Positions 1-28,837 of a stretch of DNA of 64,000 nt are shown here, piece by piece. The notes under the pieces were generated by a model. That model ran no database searches. It worked only from the letters and a program-made list of their open reading frames with translations, and was not told the origin of the DNA. The translations under genes were made by a program, and so were the position numbers. This DNA comes from Selenomonadales bacterium. Lineage in GTDB: Bacteria; Bacillota; Negativicutes; Sporomusales; UBA7701. Within the stretch, counting starts at the first letter, position 1. Each line of letters starts with the position of its first letter. The stretch lies in assembly GCA_029975165.1 (NCBI GenBank), contig JARKPR010000047.1:1-64000 (forward strand). Reading direction: 5' to 3'.

Positions 1-36
1 CGGTGCGCCTTGCATCTGGGCACTTCTGAGCGGCCT
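1..36. repeat. truncated copy of the ~126-bp palindromic intergenic element
   Basis: The first 36 bases match the right arm of the element at 1813-1938: the first 20 bases (CGGTGCGCCTTGCATCTGG and the next base) differ at one position only, and the similarity then fades through a TTCT block. The rest of the element would lie before the window. It sits directly downstream of the activase stop codon at 38-40, like the other copies, which also lie behind gene ends. Confidence 0.6.
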
Positions 37-37
37 A

Positions 38-823
38 CTACTGTTTCGCAATAAGGTTTATCGCGTGGACGGCGCAGCCGATGGCGCCGTTGAGCTGTGG
101 CCTTGGCGGCACGACGACCTTCACGTTGAGCTCGCGTTCGATGATCCGCGGCAAGGCCTTGCCGACCGCCACCCCGCCGGTGAAGACGACCGTGTCGCCG
201 GCCCGGGTCAGCGCGGCCAGCATCGGCTTGACCCGCTTGAAGATGGTGTAGTTCACGCCGGCCGCCAGTTCGGCCGGCGAGTAGCCTTCGACGATGCGAC
301 CGATGAGCTCCGATTCGCCGAAGATGGCGCACGTCGCGCTCAGCTCGACCGGGTTGTCGCTGTGGCGGCTGAGCTCCTCCAGGCTGATGCCCAGCACGGC
401 GGCCATGTTCTCCAGGTACCGTCCCGTGCTGGCGGCGCATTTGTCGTTGGTCTGGAAGTCCGCCATCTTGCCGCGGCGCACCTTGACGACCTTGCTGTCC
501 TGCCCTCCCAGGTCGAGAAGGGTGAAATCCTTGAGCCCCGTCTGCCACACGGCGCCGAGAGCATGGGCCTTGAGCTCGGGGATGACCGTCGCACCGGCGA
601 TGGCCAGCGTGTTGCGGCCGTAGCCGGTGGCCACCACCGCCTCGCTCGCCCCGAGACCCAAAGCGGCGAAGTCGACGGCCAGCTCGCCGTTCTGCCGCCG
701 CCCGTAGTCGCGGTAGAATTCCACCGTTTCCAGTACTTTCTCGGTCGTGATCCGCCCGTCAGCCAGCAGCACGATTTTGACGCTGCGGCTGCCGAGGTCG
801 ATACCGCACAGCACGCCGATCAC
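38..823 (-). CDS. 2-hydroxyacyl-CoA dehydratase activase (HgdC/BadF/BcrA ATPase family)
   Basis: This 261-aa protein is an ASKHA-fold ATPase of the type that uses ATP hydrolysis to push one low-potential electron onto a partner iron-sulfur enzyme. The N-terminal phosphate loop GIDLGSRSVK is at residues 7-16. Two cysteines, C129 (in NDKCAASTGRY) and C165 (in SATCAIFGES), match the family residues that hold one [4Fe-4S] cluster across the dimer, and FTGGVA is the adenosine motif near the C-terminus. Length is normal for HgdC. It overlaps the upstream dehydratase-like gene by 4 bases (ATGA), so the two are translationally coupled. The partner's substrate is not visible from sequence. Confidence 0.9.
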   Translation of the reverse strand: MIGVLCGIDLGSRSVKIVLLADGRITTEKVLETVEFYRDYGRRQNGELAVDFAALGLGASEAVVATGYGRNTLAIAGATVIPELKAHALGAVWQTGLKDFTLLDLGGQDSKVVKVRRGKMADFQTNDKCAASTGRYLENMAAVLGISLEELSRHSDNPVELSATCAIFGESELIGRIVEGYSPAELAAGVNYTIFKRVKPMLAALTRAGDTVVFTGGVAVGKALPRIIERELNVKVVVPPRPQLNGAIGCAVHAINLIAKQ

Positions 824-1797
824 CTCAACATCTCCAGGAAGCTGTCGACCCGCAGGCGGGTGCGGGCGTCGACCTTGCTCGGCTTGTCGCCCTCGACCGT
901 CAGGATGGGCACGTCCAGCTTCTCGCGGAAGATCATATCCTCGATCTGGCGGAAACAGAAGCTCTGAACATAATGGATGACACCGTCGAGATTGCGGCGC
1001 TCGACCTCCCGCCTGACGTCCTCGATGCGGCCGAAGACGCCGTAGGGATAGGTGTACAGCCGGTACTGCTCGACGAGGTCGTCGGTGGCGAAGGGCATGG
1101 CGAACTGGCGCTGCACCTCGTTGAAAACGATGCGGGCCCCCATCTTCTCGACATAGTCGTACAGGTCGGTGAGGATGGGCGGCACGCCGATGAAGCCGAG
1201 GCGGACGTCCTCGGAAAACTCGGCCGCATTCTCTGCGGCAGCCAGGAAGGCGTCCACATCCCGCTCGAAGGTGTCGACGTCGCCGTTGAAGTCGCTGCAG
1301 TTCACCTGGTAAAGGTGGTTATGCCAGCCGCTGACCGTGCCCGCCTGCCAGGTGAGGCGGTCGATCTCGGCGACCTTGGCGCGCACGGCGTCCAGCCGGC
1401 GCTTGGCGGCGTTCACCGCTTCCCAGCCGGTGCCGAGGCGATCCATCAGCTTCTCCATCTGCAGCTTGAGCAGGTCGTAGTCGCGGTCGAAGGGAAAAGC
1501 GAAGGGGATTGTCTCCACCCCGGCCAGCTGATAGGTTTCCATCAGGGCATGGGTATTGCTGCAATCCCCCTGGGTAACGGCGATAACCTTGTCGATGTCG
1601 CCGCCCTGGACGACCACGGAATACAGCCCCTTTATCCAGCCGCAGATGTTGCGGGGATAGCCCGCTTCCTCGGCGGCCTCCGTCAGGCGGAGGGCCTCGG
1701 GGTTGCTGATGAGGATATTGTTGAGGTCCACCGGCGTGTGTCCGGCGGCGAAGACTATCTCCGCCGGGATGGTGGTAGTAATGCCAATTTTAGCCAT
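820..1797 (-). CDS. 2-hydroxyacyl-CoA dehydratase subunit D-type protein (HgdB/FldB family), single subunit
   Basis: This 325-aa protein belongs to the HgdB/BcrC/FldBC superfamily of iron-sulfur proteins that are activated by HgdC-type ATPases. Cysteines at C52 (RNICGW), C79 (QGDCSN) and C281 (QSFCFRQ) sit where family members ligate a [4Fe-4S] cluster; C167 is an extra one. Classical dehydratases have two such subunits of about 380-430 aa, and only one, rather short, is present here with its activase. It could be a homomeric dehydratase, a benzoyl-CoA-reductase-like subunit or a double-cubane-cluster-type reductase. The family is clear and the reaction is not. Confidence 0.8.
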   Translation of the reverse strand: MAKIGITTTIPAEIVFAAGHTPVDLNNILISNPEALRLTEAAEEAGYPRNICGWIKGLYSVVVQGGDIDKVIAVTQGDCSNTHALMETYQLAGVETIPFAFPFDRDYDLLKLQMEKLMDRLGTGWEAVNAAKRRLDAVRAKVAEIDRLTWQAGTVSGWHNHLYQVNCSDFNGDVDTFERDVDAFLAAAENAAEFSEDVRLGFIGVPPILTDLYDYVEKMGARIVFNEVQRQFAMPFATDDLVEQYRLYTYPYGVFGRIEDVRREVERRNLDGVIHYVQSFCFRQIEDMIFREKLDVPILTVEGDKPSKVDARTRLRVDSFLEMLR

Positions 1798-1812
1798 TTC
1801 GCCTCTTGTTCA

Positions 1813-1938
1813 GGGGAAGCGGTTTATAAAGTCCATCTGCGGCGTTGGCCCTCCGGGCGCTTGCTAGCGTACGTTCGAGTACGCGTCGCGGCGCGTCCTC
1901 GGTCCGCCTTGCATCTGGAGCTTTCTAAACCGCTTCCG
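1813..1938. repeat. palindromic intergenic repeat element, copy 1
   Basis: An about 126-bp element starts GGGGAAGCGGTTTATAAAG and ends TTCTAAACCGCTTCC, so the termini are inverted repeats (GGAAGCGGTTTA). The centre has a second inverted repeat, GCGTAC-N6-GTACGC. A near-identical copy in the opposite orientation is at 23521-23648 and a truncated one at 1-36. Conserved internal blocks include CCATCTGCG and GCATCTGG. It fills the gap behind the CofE-like gene. It may be a MITE- or REP-like element, or a structured 3-prime RNA element. Confidence 0.85.
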
Positions 1939-1971
1939 GCATTCCAACGGAAGTAATGACGGACGCCCCTG

Positions 1972-2637
1972 TCACGCGGTAGCCAATTCTTGAGCTGCCT
2001 GCGCATAATTCTTGATAATCACAATCGGCGTCCGCTGGCTGGCGTTGCCGAACGGGTTGTCGATGAGGATCTGGGCCAGGTTGGCCGGATTGAGCCCGGC
2101 GGACACGCCGAGGATGGCGGCCCGCTTCAGGTCGTTGACGTCGGCTACCGCCCCCCCGTGGCAGCCGAAACGCGTCTTGATGGCCTCGGCCACGCCGTTC
2201 GGGTCGGCCGGGCCGTAGACGATATGCTTGTCGAACGGCGGCATGGTGCCGGTGACGTCGTCGATGAGGGCGGCCTGCTCGCCGGCCATTTCGTAAAACA
2301 CGCCGCTGCGGCCGACCAGCTTGGCCAGTATGCCCATGACCATCGCCCAGGCCACCCGCCACTTGCCTTCGGCGTCCATCGCCGCCTGCATGCCGTAGGC
2401 GCTGGAGAGGCTGCCCTTCTGGGGCACGAGCCGGCACAGCAGCTTGGCCAGGAAACAGGGGTCCATATCTTCGGGACGCACGATGCGGCCCTGGGTTATC
2501 GCCACGACGCTCTCGGCCACGGACACCACGTCGTCGGGGCCGATATTGTCGCCGGCGTAGGCGGCGATCGTCGCGACGATGTCGTCGCCGGGGGTAAGGA
2601 TGCGGGTCTTGACAGGTATCAATTCCACTATCGCCAC
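1972..2637 (-). CDS. coenzyme F420-0:L-glutamate ligase-like protein (CofE family)
   Basis: This 221-aa protein resembles the CofE/FbiB N-terminal family of GTP-dependent gamma-glutamyl ligases: an N-terminal PVKTRILTPGDD stretch, VSVAESVVAITQGR, and a GxP-type central region with GGAVADVNDL. The organism type is not expected to make F420, and no other F420 gene lies nearby, so a different amide-forming substrate is possible. The gene leads a minus-strand set (DUF, murI) with 12 bp to the gene upstream. The start follows a good SD (GGAGG) just before the codon. The family call is fairly firm; the substrate is unknown. Confidence 0.75.
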   Translation of the reverse strand: MAIVELIPVKTRILTPGDDIVATIAAYAGDNIGPDDVVSVAESVVAITQGRIVRPEDMDPCFLAKLLCRLVPQKGSLSSAYGMQAAMDAEGKWRVAWAMVMGILAKLVGRSGVFYEMAGEQAALIDDVTGTMPPFDKHIVYGPADPNGVAEAIKTRFGCHGGAVADVNDLKRAAILGVSAGLNPANLAQILIDNPFGNASQRTPIVIIKNYAQAAQELATA

Positions 2638-22477: not shown

Positions 22478-23464
22478 TTGAACATCATCGTGACGGAGAG
22501 GATTGCCGAAGTCGGCATATACTACCTCAGGGAAAGCGGCTTTACCGTCGAAACCTGCCTCGGCATATCCCAGGCCGCCCTCCTGAAAAAAGCCGCCCGC
22601 TGCGACGGCCTGATCGTCCGCAGCGTAACCCGCGTCGACGAAGAGCTCCTCGTCCGGGCCGAGCGGCTGAAGATCGTCGGCCGCGCCGGCAACGGCCTGG
22701 ATAATATCGACCTTCCGGCCTGTACCCGCCGGGGCATCCCGGTCGTTAATACCCCGGCCGCCAACGCCATGTCCACTGCCGAACTGGCCGTCGGCCTCAT
22801 CTTCGCCGCCTTCCGCAACATCCCCCAGGCTTACTGCGCCGGCAAGGCCAGGGACTTCCGCCGTACCGTCTACTCCGGCCAGGAATTGTTCGGCAAAACG
22901 GCCGGCATCATCGGCCTCGGCCGCATCGGCGCCCAGGTGGCCGCCAAGCTCCAAGCCCTGGGCATGAAGATCATCGCCTACGACCCTTATATCGACGACT
23001 CCCGGTTCGACGCCCTCAATGCCGAAAAATCCGACACCCTGGCGGCTCTCCTCCACCGGGCCGACGTCATCACCCTCCATGTGCCGAAAACAGCCGAGAC
23101 CACCGACCTCATCGGCGCCGACGAACTAGACCTGTGTAAGCCGGGGGTGCGCATCGTCAGCACCTCCCGCGCCGGCATCGTCAACGAGCGGGCCATCTAC
23201 AACGCTCTGCGCAGCGCCCACGTCGCCGCCGCCGGCCTCGACATCCTCGACCCGGAACCGGACTTCGAGGCCGCCCCGGGAGAGCAGGATTACAGCCACC
23301 CCCTCCTCGAGCTCGACAACGCCATCATCACCCCGCATATGGGCGGGTCGACCGAAGAGGCCGAGCGCACCATCAGCATGACTCTCGCCCGCCTCATCAC
23401 GAAAGCATTTTTCGGCGAACCGATCGCCGCGGCCAACAACATTCCCCGCCTGCGGGGACGGTAA
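22478..23464 (+). CDS. D-2-hydroxyacid dehydrogenase, phosphoglycerate-dehydrogenase-like
   Basis: This 328-aa NAD-dependent dehydrogenase lacks the C-terminal ACT domain of long SerA enzymes. The nucleotide loop is IIGLGRIGAQVAAKL; the catalytic Arg sits in STSRAGIVNE, Glu in ILDPEPD and His in ITPHMGGSTEE. It could act on 3-phosphoglycerate or another hydroxyacid. The TTG start at 22478 follows AAGGAGGT. Confidence 0.85.
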   Translation: MNIIVTERIAEVGIYYLRESGFTVETCLGISQAALLKKAARCDGLIVRSVTRVDEELLVRAERLKIVGRAGNGLDNIDLPACTRRGIPVVNTPAANAMSTAELAVGLIFAAFRNIPQAYCAGKARDFRRTVYSGQELFGKTAGIIGLGRIGAQVAAKLQALGMKIIAYDPYIDDSRFDALNAEKSDTLAALLHRADVITLHVPKTAETTDLIGADELDLCKPGVRIVSTSRAGIVNERAIYNALRSAHVAAAGLDILDPEPDFEAAPGEQDYSHPLLELDNAIITPHMGGSTEEAERTISMTLARLITKAFFGEPIAAANNIPRLRGR

Positions 23465-23480
23465 AACATTTTAATCGACG

Positions 23481-23510
23481 AAAAAGCACCGCTTTCGCGG
23501 TGCCTTTTTC
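23481..23510 (+). terminator. terminator behind the PGDH-like gene
   Basis: AAAAAGCACCGC and GCGGTGCCTTTTT form a stem with loop TTTC and a T-run. Confidence 0.88.
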
Positions 23511-23520
23511 TCGTCATGCC

Positions 23521-23648
23521 GGAAGCGGTTTAGAAGGAGCCAGATGCTAGGCGCACCGGAGGCTGACACCGGCAGCGTACACGGAACGTACGCTGAGGAT
23601 GGCAACCGAGGAGCAACAACGCAGATGGCCCTTATAAACCGCTTCCCC
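23521..23648. repeat. palindromic intergenic repeat element, copy 2
   Basis: This is the inverse of the element at 1813-1938. It starts GGAAGCGGTTTAGAAGG and ends CTTATAAACCGCTTCCCC, with the same CAGATGC, GCGTAC-N6-GTACGC and GCAGATGG blocks inside. It lies between two convergent genes, and its last 17 bases form the final four sense codons and the stop of tcdA. Confidence 0.88.
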
Positions 23649-24402
23649 CGTCACGAATAAGAGCCCTGACGACCTCCGCCGCCAATATCAGCCCCGCCAC
23701 CGAGGGCACGAAAGCGATGCTGCCCGGAATCTGCCGGCGCGTCGTGCACTTCCGCGTCGTCCCCGGCGGGCAGACGCACCCCGTCGCGCAGCTCGAATCT
23801 TCGGTCTCCGCGGGCGTGAGGGGCTGCTCCCGCGAATACACCACCTTCAGAGCGGTCACGCCGCGGCGTTTGAGCTCATAGCGCATAACCTTGGCCAGCG
23901 GGCAGACCGACGTGCTGTAAATATCGGCCACCTCAAACTTGGTCGGGTCGAGCTTGTTGCCCGCCCCCATGCAGCTGATGATCGGGATGCCCCGCGCCGT
24001 AGCCTGCACGGCCAGATCGATCTTCGCCGTCACCGTATCGACGGCGTCGATGATATAGTCGTAATCGTCGGCAATAAGCTCTGCGGCCGTCTCCGGCAGA
24101 TAAAACTGCCGGTGGATCGTGACGCTCGTGTCCGGGTTGATCTCCAACACTCTGTCGCGCATAACCTCCACCTTCGGCCTGCCGACCGTTCGCATCGTCG
24201 CGTGCAGTTGCCTGTTGAGGTTCGTCAGGCAAATGCAGTCGTCGTCCACGAGCACCAGCCCGCCCACACCGGAGCGGACCAGTCCCTCGACCGCAAACGA
24301 ACCCACCCCGCCGATTCCGAATACCGCCACCTTTTTCGCGGCCAGCCTGGCCAGAGCCGCCGTGCCGACAAGCAACTCCGTCCGGGAAAAACGGTGCAGC
24401 AT
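23632..24402 (-). CDS. tcdA: tRNA threonylcarbamoyladenosine dehydratase (ThiF/MoeB family)
   Basis: It is an ATP-dependent enzyme that cyclises t6A37 of tRNA to ct6A. The 256-aa protein has the E1-type loop VAVFGIGGVGSFAVE, the VDDDCICLTNLNRQLHA motif, DAVDTVTAKIDL, and the TcdA-specific segment SCMGAGNKLDPTKFEVADI. Family cysteines occur in TSVCPLAK and SSCATGCVCPPG. The ATG at 24402 follows GGTGGGG. The C-terminal residues GSGL and the stop are encoded by the terminal arm of a repeat element. Confidence 0.92.
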   Translation of the reverse strand: MLHRFSRTELLVGTAALARLAAKKVAVFGIGGVGSFAVEGLVRSGVGGLVLVDDDCICLTNLNRQLHATMRTVGRPKVEVMRDRVLEINPDTSVTIHRQFYLPETAAELIADDYDYIIDAVDTVTAKIDLAVQATARGIPIISCMGAGNKLDPTKFEVADIYSTSVCPLAKVMRYELKRRGVTALKVVYSREQPLTPAETEDSSCATGCVCPPGTTRKCTTRRQIPGSIAFVPSVAGLILAAEVVRALIRDGGSGL

Positions 24403-24505
24403 AACCCCACCCTTTCGCCAAACCCTATCCATAAAATATCCGTTCAAAAATAAAAATACTCCGTCGCCCGCGGCAATCCCTGCCGGCGGGACGAAAACGC
24501 GAACA

Positions 24506-25500: not shown

Positions 25501-26820
25501 CTACAGCCCCAAACGGCCAGCCAGCCAGTCGATCAGGCCCGGGCTCAGGGTCGACGCAATCAGCAGGACGGTGAGTCCGCTGATAAGGATGGCGAAGCTC
25601 CACGCCACCAGATTGTAAAGGGACGAATTGCGGTACTCGCCCATTATCCGCGCGTTGCTGGCAATGAGCACCATGAAAACCAGCACCGGCACGAGCAAGA
25701 TGCCGTTGACCACCTGGGTGGTCAGCATAACGTGGTAAAGCGACAGGCCGGGCCACAGCACCAGCACGGCGCTGATGACGATGATGGCCGTGTACAGGCC
25801 GAAGAACACTGGCGCGTCTTTATAAGACTTACTGATGCCCCGCTCGAAGCCGAACGCCTCGCAGATGGCGTACGCCGTGCTCAGCGGCAGGATGAACGCC
25901 GCCAGCATCGAGGCGCCGAACAGGCCGAAAGCGAACAGGAAAGAGGCATATTTGCCGGCCAGCGGCTCGAGGGCGACCGCCGCGTCCGCCGCCGTCTCGA
26001 TGGGGATATTGTTCACATGCAGGGTGGCGGCCGTCGCCACGACAATGAAAAAGGCGATCAGTCCGGTGAAAAAAGCGCCGACAAGCACGTCCCACCGCGT
26101 GTAGGCATATGTCTTGGCCGTTATCCCCTTGTCGACGATCGTCGCCTGGACGTAAAACTGGCCCCAAGGCGTTATCGTCGTGCCGATAATGCCGATGACC
26201 ATCAGCAGGAACCCCGGGCTGCGGGAAAATGTCGGCGTCGCCGCCGCCGCCATCACCTCCCGCCACGGCGGGTCGACGATGAACCCGGAGATGACGTACG
26301 AAAAGAACGTCAGGCAGAGGGCGAAAAACACCTTCTCGACCCGCGAGTAGCTGGCCTTCAGCACCAGCCGCCATACCACGAAGGCGCTGACCGGCACGGC
26401 GATGTACCTGCTGATCCCGAAGATTTCGAAGCTGGTGGCGATGCCGGAGAACTCCGACACCGTCGTGCCGATGTTGGCCACCATCAGCACCGTCATGGCG
26501 AACAGCGTCCACCTCACTCCGTAGCGCTCGCGGATGAGGTCGGACAGGCCGCGGCCGGTGACCGCCCCCGTGCGGGCGGAAATTTCCTGGACCACGGTCA
26601 GTACGAGGATGCTTATGAACAGCACGAACAACAGGCTGTACCCGTACTTGGCCCCGGCCGCGGAGTAAGTGGCGATGCCGCCGGCGTCGTTGTCGGCGAA
26701 GGCGGTGATGATGCCCGGCCCCATGACGGAAAGAAACAGGATCAGCCTTTCCCGTATTTTTTTCAGATCCAGCGCCGGCCACCTCCTTCCCCCGCTGCTT
26801 AGAAAACTTGGCTTCGCCAA
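25501..26820 (-). CDS. Nramp-related divalent metal transporter, probably Mg2+ (NRMT type)
   Basis: This is an eleven-helix LeuT-fold transporter of 439 aa or slightly less. Classical Mn/Fe Nramps carry DPGN in helix 1 and MPH in helix 6; here they read ADNDAGG and TTITPWGQ, so the metal site differs. An M-box (Mg2+) riboswitch precedes the gene. Nramp-related magnesium transporters with M-box leaders are known from Clostridia, which supports Mg2+ as substrate. The TTG at 26820 has no usable SD; AAGGAGG lies 9 bases before an in-frame CTG at 26772, which may be the true start (about 423 aa). Confidence 0.85.
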   Translation of the reverse strand: MAKPSFLSSGGRRWPALDLKKIRERLILFLSVMGPGIITAFADNDAGGIATYSAAGAKYGYSLLFVLFISILVLTVVQEISARTGAVTGRGLSDLIRERYGVRWTLFAMTVLMVANIGTTVSEFSGIATSFEIFGISRYIAVPVSAFVVWRLVLKASYSRVEKVFFALCLTFFSYVISGFIVDPPWREVMAAAATPTFSRSPGFLLMVIGIIGTTITPWGQFYVQATIVDKGITAKTYAYTRWDVLVGAFFTGLIAFFIVVATAATLHVNNIPIETAADAAVALEPLAGKYASFLFAFGLFGASMLAAFILPLSTAYAICEAFGFERGISKSYKDAPVFFGLYTAIIVISAVLVLWPGLSLYHVMLTTQVVNGILLVPVLVFMVLIASNARIMGEYRNSSLYNLVAWSFAILISGLTVLLIASTLSPGLIDWLAGRLGL

Positions 26821-26941: not shown

Positions 26942-27107
26942 GACCTTCCCTACTCGTCGAGCTTTAGCACTGCATAACGTAGAGCACACTCCTCAGCCAC
27001 ATTAGGTAGAACCTTACGCCGGTAATACCTGTTATACCCATTGGCGTCTCTCGACGTTTCCGGGCAGTGGCCTTTGTTTATGCAGGAGCCTCACCTAACA
27101 GAGAAAT
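26942..27107 (-). promoter_or_regulatory. M-box (ykoK) magnesium riboswitch
   Basis: The minus-strand RNA carries the M-box core in order: GTTAGGTGAGGCTCCTGCAT, GGCCACTGCCCGGAAACGTC, GAGACGCCAATGGGT, AACAGGT, and the 3-prime ATGCAGTGCTAAAGCTC. P1 can form between TTCTCT and AGGGAA. High Mg2+ should stabilise P1, free the terminator arm and shut the gene off. The controlled gene is the Nramp-related transporter. Confidence 0.93.
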
Positions 27108-27125
27108 GATCGGTTTTTCTTCTTC

Positions 27126-28202: not shown

Positions 28203-28709
28203 GTGTATTACGACTATGACGACGACGACTACGGTTGTGGGTGCCAGTCGATGAAATGCATGTCCAGCTGTCACTCCATGGACAGCTGCCATTCCATGAA
28301 ATGCTGTTATTCCATGAAGCCGATGTATTCCTGCCATTCCATGGATAGCTGCCATTCCATGAAATGCATGTCCTGTGCTTATTCCATGAAGTGCGCCAAA
28401 TGCATGCATAGCTGCCACTCGATGTACAGTTGCCAGTATATGAAGAGCTGCGACTATATGAAGACCTGCGAGTGTACGAAAAGCTGCGAATGCATGAAGA
28501 CCTGTGACTATCCGAAGACCTGCGAATGTATGAAGACCTGCGACTATCCGAAAAGCTGCGAGTGCATGAAGACTTGCGACTATCCGAAAACCTGCGAGTG
28601 CATGAAGACTTGCGACTACCCGAAGACCTGCGAGTATATGAAGACTTGCGACTATCCGAAAACCTGCCACTATATGAAGACCTGCCACTATATGAAAGGC
28701 TGTAAGTAG
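28203..28709 (+). CDS. extremely Cys-rich hexapeptide-repeat protein
   Basis: This 168-aa protein contains 35 cysteines (21%). Residues 1-10 are acidic and tyrosine-rich (MYYDYDDDDY). Residues 11-80 carry CHSMDSCHSMK-type repeats; residues 80-168 are a regular hexad array of KTCDYP/KTCECM type. There is no signal peptide or membrane helix. GGGAGGTG lies 6 bases before the GTG start, which fixes strand and start. No known family is recognised. It could be a spore-coat or crust structural protein, a metallothionein-like metal store, or a modified-peptide substrate. It converges on a YcaO gene 128 bp away. Confidence 0.82.
   Translation: MYYDYDDDDYGCGCQSMKCMSSCHSMDSCHSMKCCYSMKPMYSCHSMDSCHSMKCMSCAYSMKCAKCMHSCHSMYSCQYMKSCDYMKTCECTKSCECMKTCDYPKTCECMKTCDYPKSCECMKTCDYPKTCECMKTCDYPKTCEYMKTCDYPKTCHYMKTCHYMKGCK
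28440..28700 (+). repeat. in-frame 18/36-bp tandem repeats
   Basis: Units such as TGCGACTATCCGAAGACC alternate with TGCGAGTGCATGAAGACT; about fourteen hexapeptide units are present. Copies differ at silent and single coding sites, so the array is maintained rather than freshly duplicated. Confidence 0.85.
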
Positions 28710-28837
28710 TGGTTGACAGGCGCCGGCGCAATGCCGGCCTTCTTCTTTTCCCCGTTTTCCGGCCGGCGGGGTGGCGCAACTAAGGCTCGGGCGATTGGCC
28801 CGAGCCTAAACGGCCGCAGGTTTTCTTTTGGGGCAGC

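Follow-up and report, generated by a model that had tools for sequence, protein, structure and literature searches.

A palindromic mobile element of Negativicutes found behind stop codons and at terminator hairpins

What is the palindrome that recurs at the ends of genes in this Selenomonadales genome, and how did it come to lie there? In the window, by which we mean the whole 64,000-nucleotide stretch of DNA that was analysed, an earlier note made from the letters alone had recognised three copies sharing terminal inverted repeats, an inner hairpin and conserved blocks, and had read them as a folded RNA or as a MITE with a selected fold.

The copies in the window

The features described as common to the three copies do hold for the two full ones, at 1813-1938 and 23521-23648, which lie on opposite strands: the arms GGAAGCGGTTTA/TAAACCGCTTCC, the blocks CCATCTGCG and GCATCTGG, and the GCGTAC...GTACGC hairpin are found in both (Table 1). 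Compared with dinucleotide-shuffled controls, the folding of both is also far more stable (z -5.7 to -8.7). The inner domain of copy 1 is an alternative version, AGCGC/GCGC...GCGTACGTTCGAGTACGC, and that of copy 2 the standard one, CCATCCTCAGCGTACG... The stretch at 1-36 does belong to the family, as the right end of a copy that the start of the contig truncates; it shares GCATCTGG, but its arm is CACTTCTGAGCGGCC and not GGAAGCGGTTTA, so that the described repeat does not extend to it. This third copy overlaps the stop of gene 38-823(-). Another contig (C40, L035) ends in a copy with the same right flank, and the two are therefore probably one locus split by assembly. As for the full copies, the first lies about 24 bp past the stop of gene 1972-2637(-), in what is the minority orientation for the family, and the second sits between convergent genes, one of which, 23632-24447(-), takes its stop codon from the arm of the element. 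The intrinsic terminator beside copy 2 is conserved in the genus mates compared.

Table 1. Element copies and adjoining features in the window
Feature	Position	Strand	Basis
Copy 1, full element, arm type A	about 1809..1947	+ (CCATCTGC strand = +)	R1 match 1812-1940, 95.2 bits
Copy 1 left arm GGAAGCGGTTTATAAAGT	1815..1832	+	sequence and arm pairing
Copy 1 conserved core CCATCTGCG...GCATCTGG, with inner GCGTAC-N6-GTACGC hairpin	1833..1918	+	
Copy 1 right arm AGCTTTCTAAACCGCTTCC	1919..1937	+	
Copy 1 tail GGCATTCCAA	1938-1947	+	tail consensus CGGCAATTCAA
Copy 2, full element, arm type A	about 23510..23655	- (CCATCTGC strand = -)	R1 match 23518-23649, 141.4 bits
Stop codon TAA of gene 23632-24447(-), within copy 2 left arm	23632..23634	-	stop-to-CC distance 3
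Ordinary intrinsic terminator AAAAAGCACCGCTTTCGCGGTGCCTTTTT of gene 22478-23464(+), beside copy 2	about 23477..23510	+	
Copy 3, right end only: core end, right arm CACTTCTGAGCGGCC, tail	1..40	+ (CCATCTGC strand = +)	R1 match 1-41

Other features of the window were recorded in passing. Two adjoining genes at 38-1797(-) are predicted, from protein sequence only, to encode an acyl-CoA dehydratase activase of the BadF/BcrA type and a dehydratase-like partner. An M-box (ykoK) riboswitch (26942-27109(-), 165 bits) precedes the frame of an Nramp-like metal transporter (25501-26820(-)). Finally, a short open frame at 28206-28710 consists of an 18-nt tandem repeat of at least 14 units and encodes a Cys/His/Met/Lys-rich repeat protein, with units like TCEYMKTCDYPK, that looks like a metal-binding or spore-type protein.

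Family size, fold and covariation

The initial count of three copies proved far too low. By BLAST the window's own genome holds about 40 copies, with 40 as the minimum, and a covariance model built from 32 of its copies finds at least 128 matches there and from 109 to at least 150 in each of four genus mates, where no more than 150 candidates were scored, so that the search for further copies has returned hundreds. Of the 200 Negativicutes genomes sampled, the same model matches 65, which represent 37 of the 82 genera, and it also matches 19 other Bacillota genomes, with E-values that are rough and come near 1e-25 for the best distant matches. Those relatives that carry a name are metagenome-assembled Selenomonadales, of the class Negativicutes. 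The element had no match in the plasmid, phage and viral collections searched, nor in Rfam (4227 families, searched at the gathering threshold on the window and at a permissive E-value on four loci).

Some observations on single relatives stand apart. In distant Bacillota relatives (L231-L250) the layout GCTGCTTATAAGCACC...CTTCTAAGCAGC is kept around a GTAC hairpin, and several of these copies again lie directly behind stop codons. One contig (G018:C1) carries four matches of identical score, at 22908, 48656, 74404 and 100152, exactly 25,748 bp apart, a spacing that reflects either tandem amplification of a 25.7-kb unit or an artefact of assembly. Near one copy (L009), positions 1678-1867 contain two neighbouring sub-threshold matches to the PyrR binding site.

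The element is about 140 bp long, or up to about 190 bp when its inner domain carries cargo, and has no internal gene. Read in the orientation that places CCATCTGC first, it consists of a left end close to ACAAGGGG, a variable arm, a proximal stem, a nearly constant core CCATCTGCGGCGTTGCTCCTC...GGTGCGCCTTGCATCTGG, the complementary arm, and a tail close to CGGCAATTCAA. This pair of ends is one consensus, the other being CAGACTG and TTTGTCTACA. The inner domain is found in the standard version, in an alternative one with GCTTGC/GCGGCG, and in versions with 50-80 nt of cargo. The consensus right arm is not followed by a T-run, in agreement with the earlier view that this is no simple terminator; real T-run terminators adjoin the elements, as at 23477-23510.

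The outer arms differ strongly between loci and yet retain their complementarity. When copies were aligned without reference to structure, 95.5% of the cells were paired; shuffling lowered this to 88.3%, and sliding the partners to 31-38%. Shared ancestry inflates such pairing scores, but the slid controls retain that ancestry and still score far lower. The stems do show compensatory change, since 15 of the 29 pairs have changed on both sides among the 32 copies, a level reached in none of 500 shuffles. In copies from other genera, aligned by fitting to the model, 93.6% of cells are paired and 21 of the 29 pairs have changed on both sides.

The history of single loci bears on how this pairing is kept. 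Species share the flanks at orthologous positions, and in many cases the outer arms as well, but have different inner domains there (L056 vs L089 and L071; L065 vs L182; L042 vs L074). Exchange of sequence between copies would explain the combination of uniform cores and non-uniform arms, but such exchange alone leaves the joint change of both arms unexplained. Intramolecular template switching (palindrome correction) together with gene conversion could maintain complementarity with no selection on pairing at all, and it would account for arms that change together at orthologous loci, such as L071:10755 and L089:11064, as well as for the swapped inner domains. However, a process of this kind should also correct mismatches, and the core mismatches (CCATCTGC/GCATCTGG) and a T.C mismatch present in many arms are instead conserved across loci and genera; we thus entertain it as a possibility, and a doubtful one, next to selection on the fold.

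Insertion at gene ends and terminator hairpins

All three copies had been placed at the 3' ends of genes. This is right, and the placement is in fact much sharper, as most copies outside the young subfamily described below begin no more than a few bases from a stop codon, and in one main orientation (gene context was taken from a simple in-house gene caller). In tandem contexts the two orientations relative to the upstream gene occur 73 versus 17 times (p = 2e-9). In 58 of 122 anchored copies a distance of 15-27 nt separates the end of the stop codon from the core, so that the stop coincides with the left extremity of the element; in 10 more the stop lies inside the arm. Adjacency to a stop was observed in 59 of 96 cases against 29.5 expected from uniform placement in the same intergenic gaps (z 8.4); on the other side of the element it is found in only 7 of 46.

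It is in a young subfamily, near-identical over about 143 bp including its arms and its tail CTTTGTCTACA, that the products of insertion are best seen. These copies lie directly behind the hairpin of an intrinsic terminator, with their left end against its 3' foot, and the same hairpin is repeated past the tail. Such a direct repeat is present in 22 of the 32 young copies, with a length of 13-34 bp (median 24.5), and folds as a hairpin in 21 of the 22; among mismatched pairs of left and right flanks, 7 of 931 contain a repeat. Empty sites in sister species complete the picture: site L105 in G002 has a single terminator where G004 carries copy L075, and reciprocally L077 in G004 has a single one where G002 carries copy L183:19061. 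The same arrangement recurs in another genus, with four copies (L226-L229) at unrelated terminators. Not every site that looks empty is in its original state, since some have lost the element by deletion between short repeats in the arms (L073:17128). The empty sites and the direct repeats at young copies support the mobility of the element, which is non-autonomous. Separately, a copy with a different arm type (L162) has on both sides a repeat, AATTATGCTAAATATTTTT, of about 20 bp and with no obvious hairpin structure, and a hairpin may therefore not always be required for insertion.

Copies beside stop codons look different. Two of them have clean empty relatives: for L083:9599 this is L165, with the sequence TAA-CACAGGAGG at the empty site, and for L167:16340 it is L074. 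Neither shows an evident duplication, and short target duplications beside stop-adjacent copies are not in excess over mismatched flanks. Several copies of the B type (L146, L149, L150 and L154) lie between a stop codon and the native terminator. Because stop-adjacent copies are mostly devoid of detectable duplication, it must be assumed either that the element inserts in two ways, or that the copies beside stop codons entered in the terminator mode and have since decayed.

How the element may move, and its known counterparts

We consider it very likely that the family is a short, non-autonomous, palindromic MITE-like mobile element moved by machinery acting in trans, with cutting at the feet of the hairpin inferred and inner domains exchanged later. 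In such a process an enzyme would recognise the folded element together with a hairpin, or another feature of gene ends, in the target. The two strands would be cut at the two feet of the terminator hairpin, a step deduced from the products only, and the element would be joined in one orientation. Repair of the gaps would then copy the hairpin and leave a working terminator on both sides. Later exchange of inner domains between copies, by recombination or replacement, would give rise to a uniform core within locus-specific arms. The element shares general features of MITEs, being short, multi-copy and non-coding, with empty sites and target duplication. Of the two readings offered by the earlier note it is the MITE with a selected fold that is supported, by hundreds of copies, compensatory change, empty sites and direct repeats, rather than the RNA function.

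The element does have inverted arms, but no version bearing a transposase was seen in the approximately 2.1 Mb scanned. Neither was there an autonomous longer version among 170 pairs of left and right ends, save for three pairs more than 1 kb apart, two of which, with their flanks inspected, we read as partial or degenerate copies. Among candidate partners, the Y1 transposase (RAYT) that serves REP/REPIN sequences is absent from the window's own genome (G000) and from G003, has 7 hits in G001, and does not track the family; Cas1, for a CRISPR-type integrase, occurs in none of five genomes; and RVT_1 is absent from three of the five, namely G001 (100% complete, in 3 contigs), G003 and G004, all rich in copies. 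These results exclude Y1, Cas1 and RVT_1 as required present-day partners, but not as past ones. The idea that the arms are themselves pre-existing target hairpins was rejected too, since the conserved ends lie outside the arms and, in young copies, the element brings arms of its own in addition to the terminator next to it.

Going further, and only tentatively, we can envisage a hairpin-specific integration system that would move such elements as folded single-stranded DNA or RNA, reading structure and not sequence both in the element, with its variable co-varying arms, and in the target. It would cut both feet of the hairpin and rebuild a terminator on each side, harmless to the host, and it would be old and widespread in Bacillota.

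It is rather unlikely that the family instead derives, as a MITE, from a classical DDE insertion sequence that makes long target duplications, such as IS1202, and whose autonomous parent would lie elsewhere in the genome or be lost. Unusually long duplications are indeed what the two have in common, those of the IS1202 subgroup measuring 16-28 bp, with no known target, against 13-34 bp here (PMC10132070). However, the IS1202-family elements described are about 1.5 kb long, with a transposase gene and terminal repeats of 24-26 bp whose outer end is TGT (PMC10132070). Here only the right tail of the B type, TTTGTCTACA, reads 5'-TGT, on the opposite strand; the left end does not begin with it, and arms that vary and co-vary do not resemble a terminal repeat of constant sequence.

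Could the host maintain the element as a structured RNA, that is, a 3' UTR element or a signal for RNA processing or stability, selected at gene ends and spread only secondarily? Compensatory changes, class-wide conservation of the core and the sharp placement behind stop codons would all suit such a role. So would a strand bias: on the CCAGATG strand, most of the arm cells that depart from Watson-Crick pairing are G-U (193 against 38 A-C), and this strand folds better in 99 of 126 copies. Yet this favoured strand is antisense to the upstream gene, and so is not in the mRNA of that gene; a single common subtype of arm accounts for much of the G-U excess, which makes this excess a weak lead only. 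Presence and absence between close relatives, together with terminator duplication, show insertion, and Rfam gave no match. We therefore judge an RNA role unlikely. Least probable is a retro-element or a derivative of a group IIC intron inserting behind terminators by reverse transcription: group IIC introns do target terminators in a fixed orientation and a conserved folded core would fit, but RVT_1 is missing from G001, G003 and G004 despite their many copies, Rfam returned no group II intron match, and group II introns are not known to duplicate their target.

Returning to the MITE-like element moved in trans, target duplications made of whole terminator hairpins are a clear molecular signature of structure-guided insertion, through which the mechanism becomes testable. 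Insertion of this kind would explain why a compact genome can take up palindromes by the hundred with neither gene breakage nor loss of termination.

Several known families invite comparison. In high copy number, intergenic hairpins and mobilisation in trans, the element resembles REP/REPIN sequences, but it is much longer. ERIC/IRU/RU-1 elements of enterobacteria are likewise palindromic and intergenic, with a length of about 127 bp and reported orientation-dependent effects on the upstream mRNA (PMC2229807); they have TA ends with target duplication, whereas the element here has neither TA ends nor a TA duplication and belongs to a different phylum. For each of ERIC, REPIN, group IIC introns and Cas1 integration, a feature that was tested is lacking here. 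The 'multicopy nucleotide sequences' of Geobacter and Pelobacter, compared by description only, are also intergenic palindromic families for which non-random insertion has been noted, as it is here.

The nearest in kind appears to be YPAL/RU-2 of Yersinia, a likeness drawn from described features. In the published account, YPAL/RU-2 is a palindromic, non-autonomous element of about 168 bp, dispersed between genes, with targets that span or adjoin a dyad symmetry, target duplications of 3-26 bp, known empty and filled sites, and expression that is said to occur together with upstream genes (PMC2229807). The two share a target at or beside a dyad symmetry (terminator hairpins here) and a long target duplication of variable length. 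The covariance model and the empty sites provide a means to hunt the missing enzyme, a question that also stands for YPAL-like elements. The differences lie in the duplicated segment, which here consists of the hairpin of an intrinsic terminator in all but one of 22 cases and ranges from 13 to 34 bp; in stop codons as a second preferred site; in arms that vary with compensation; and in a family that spans a bacterial class.
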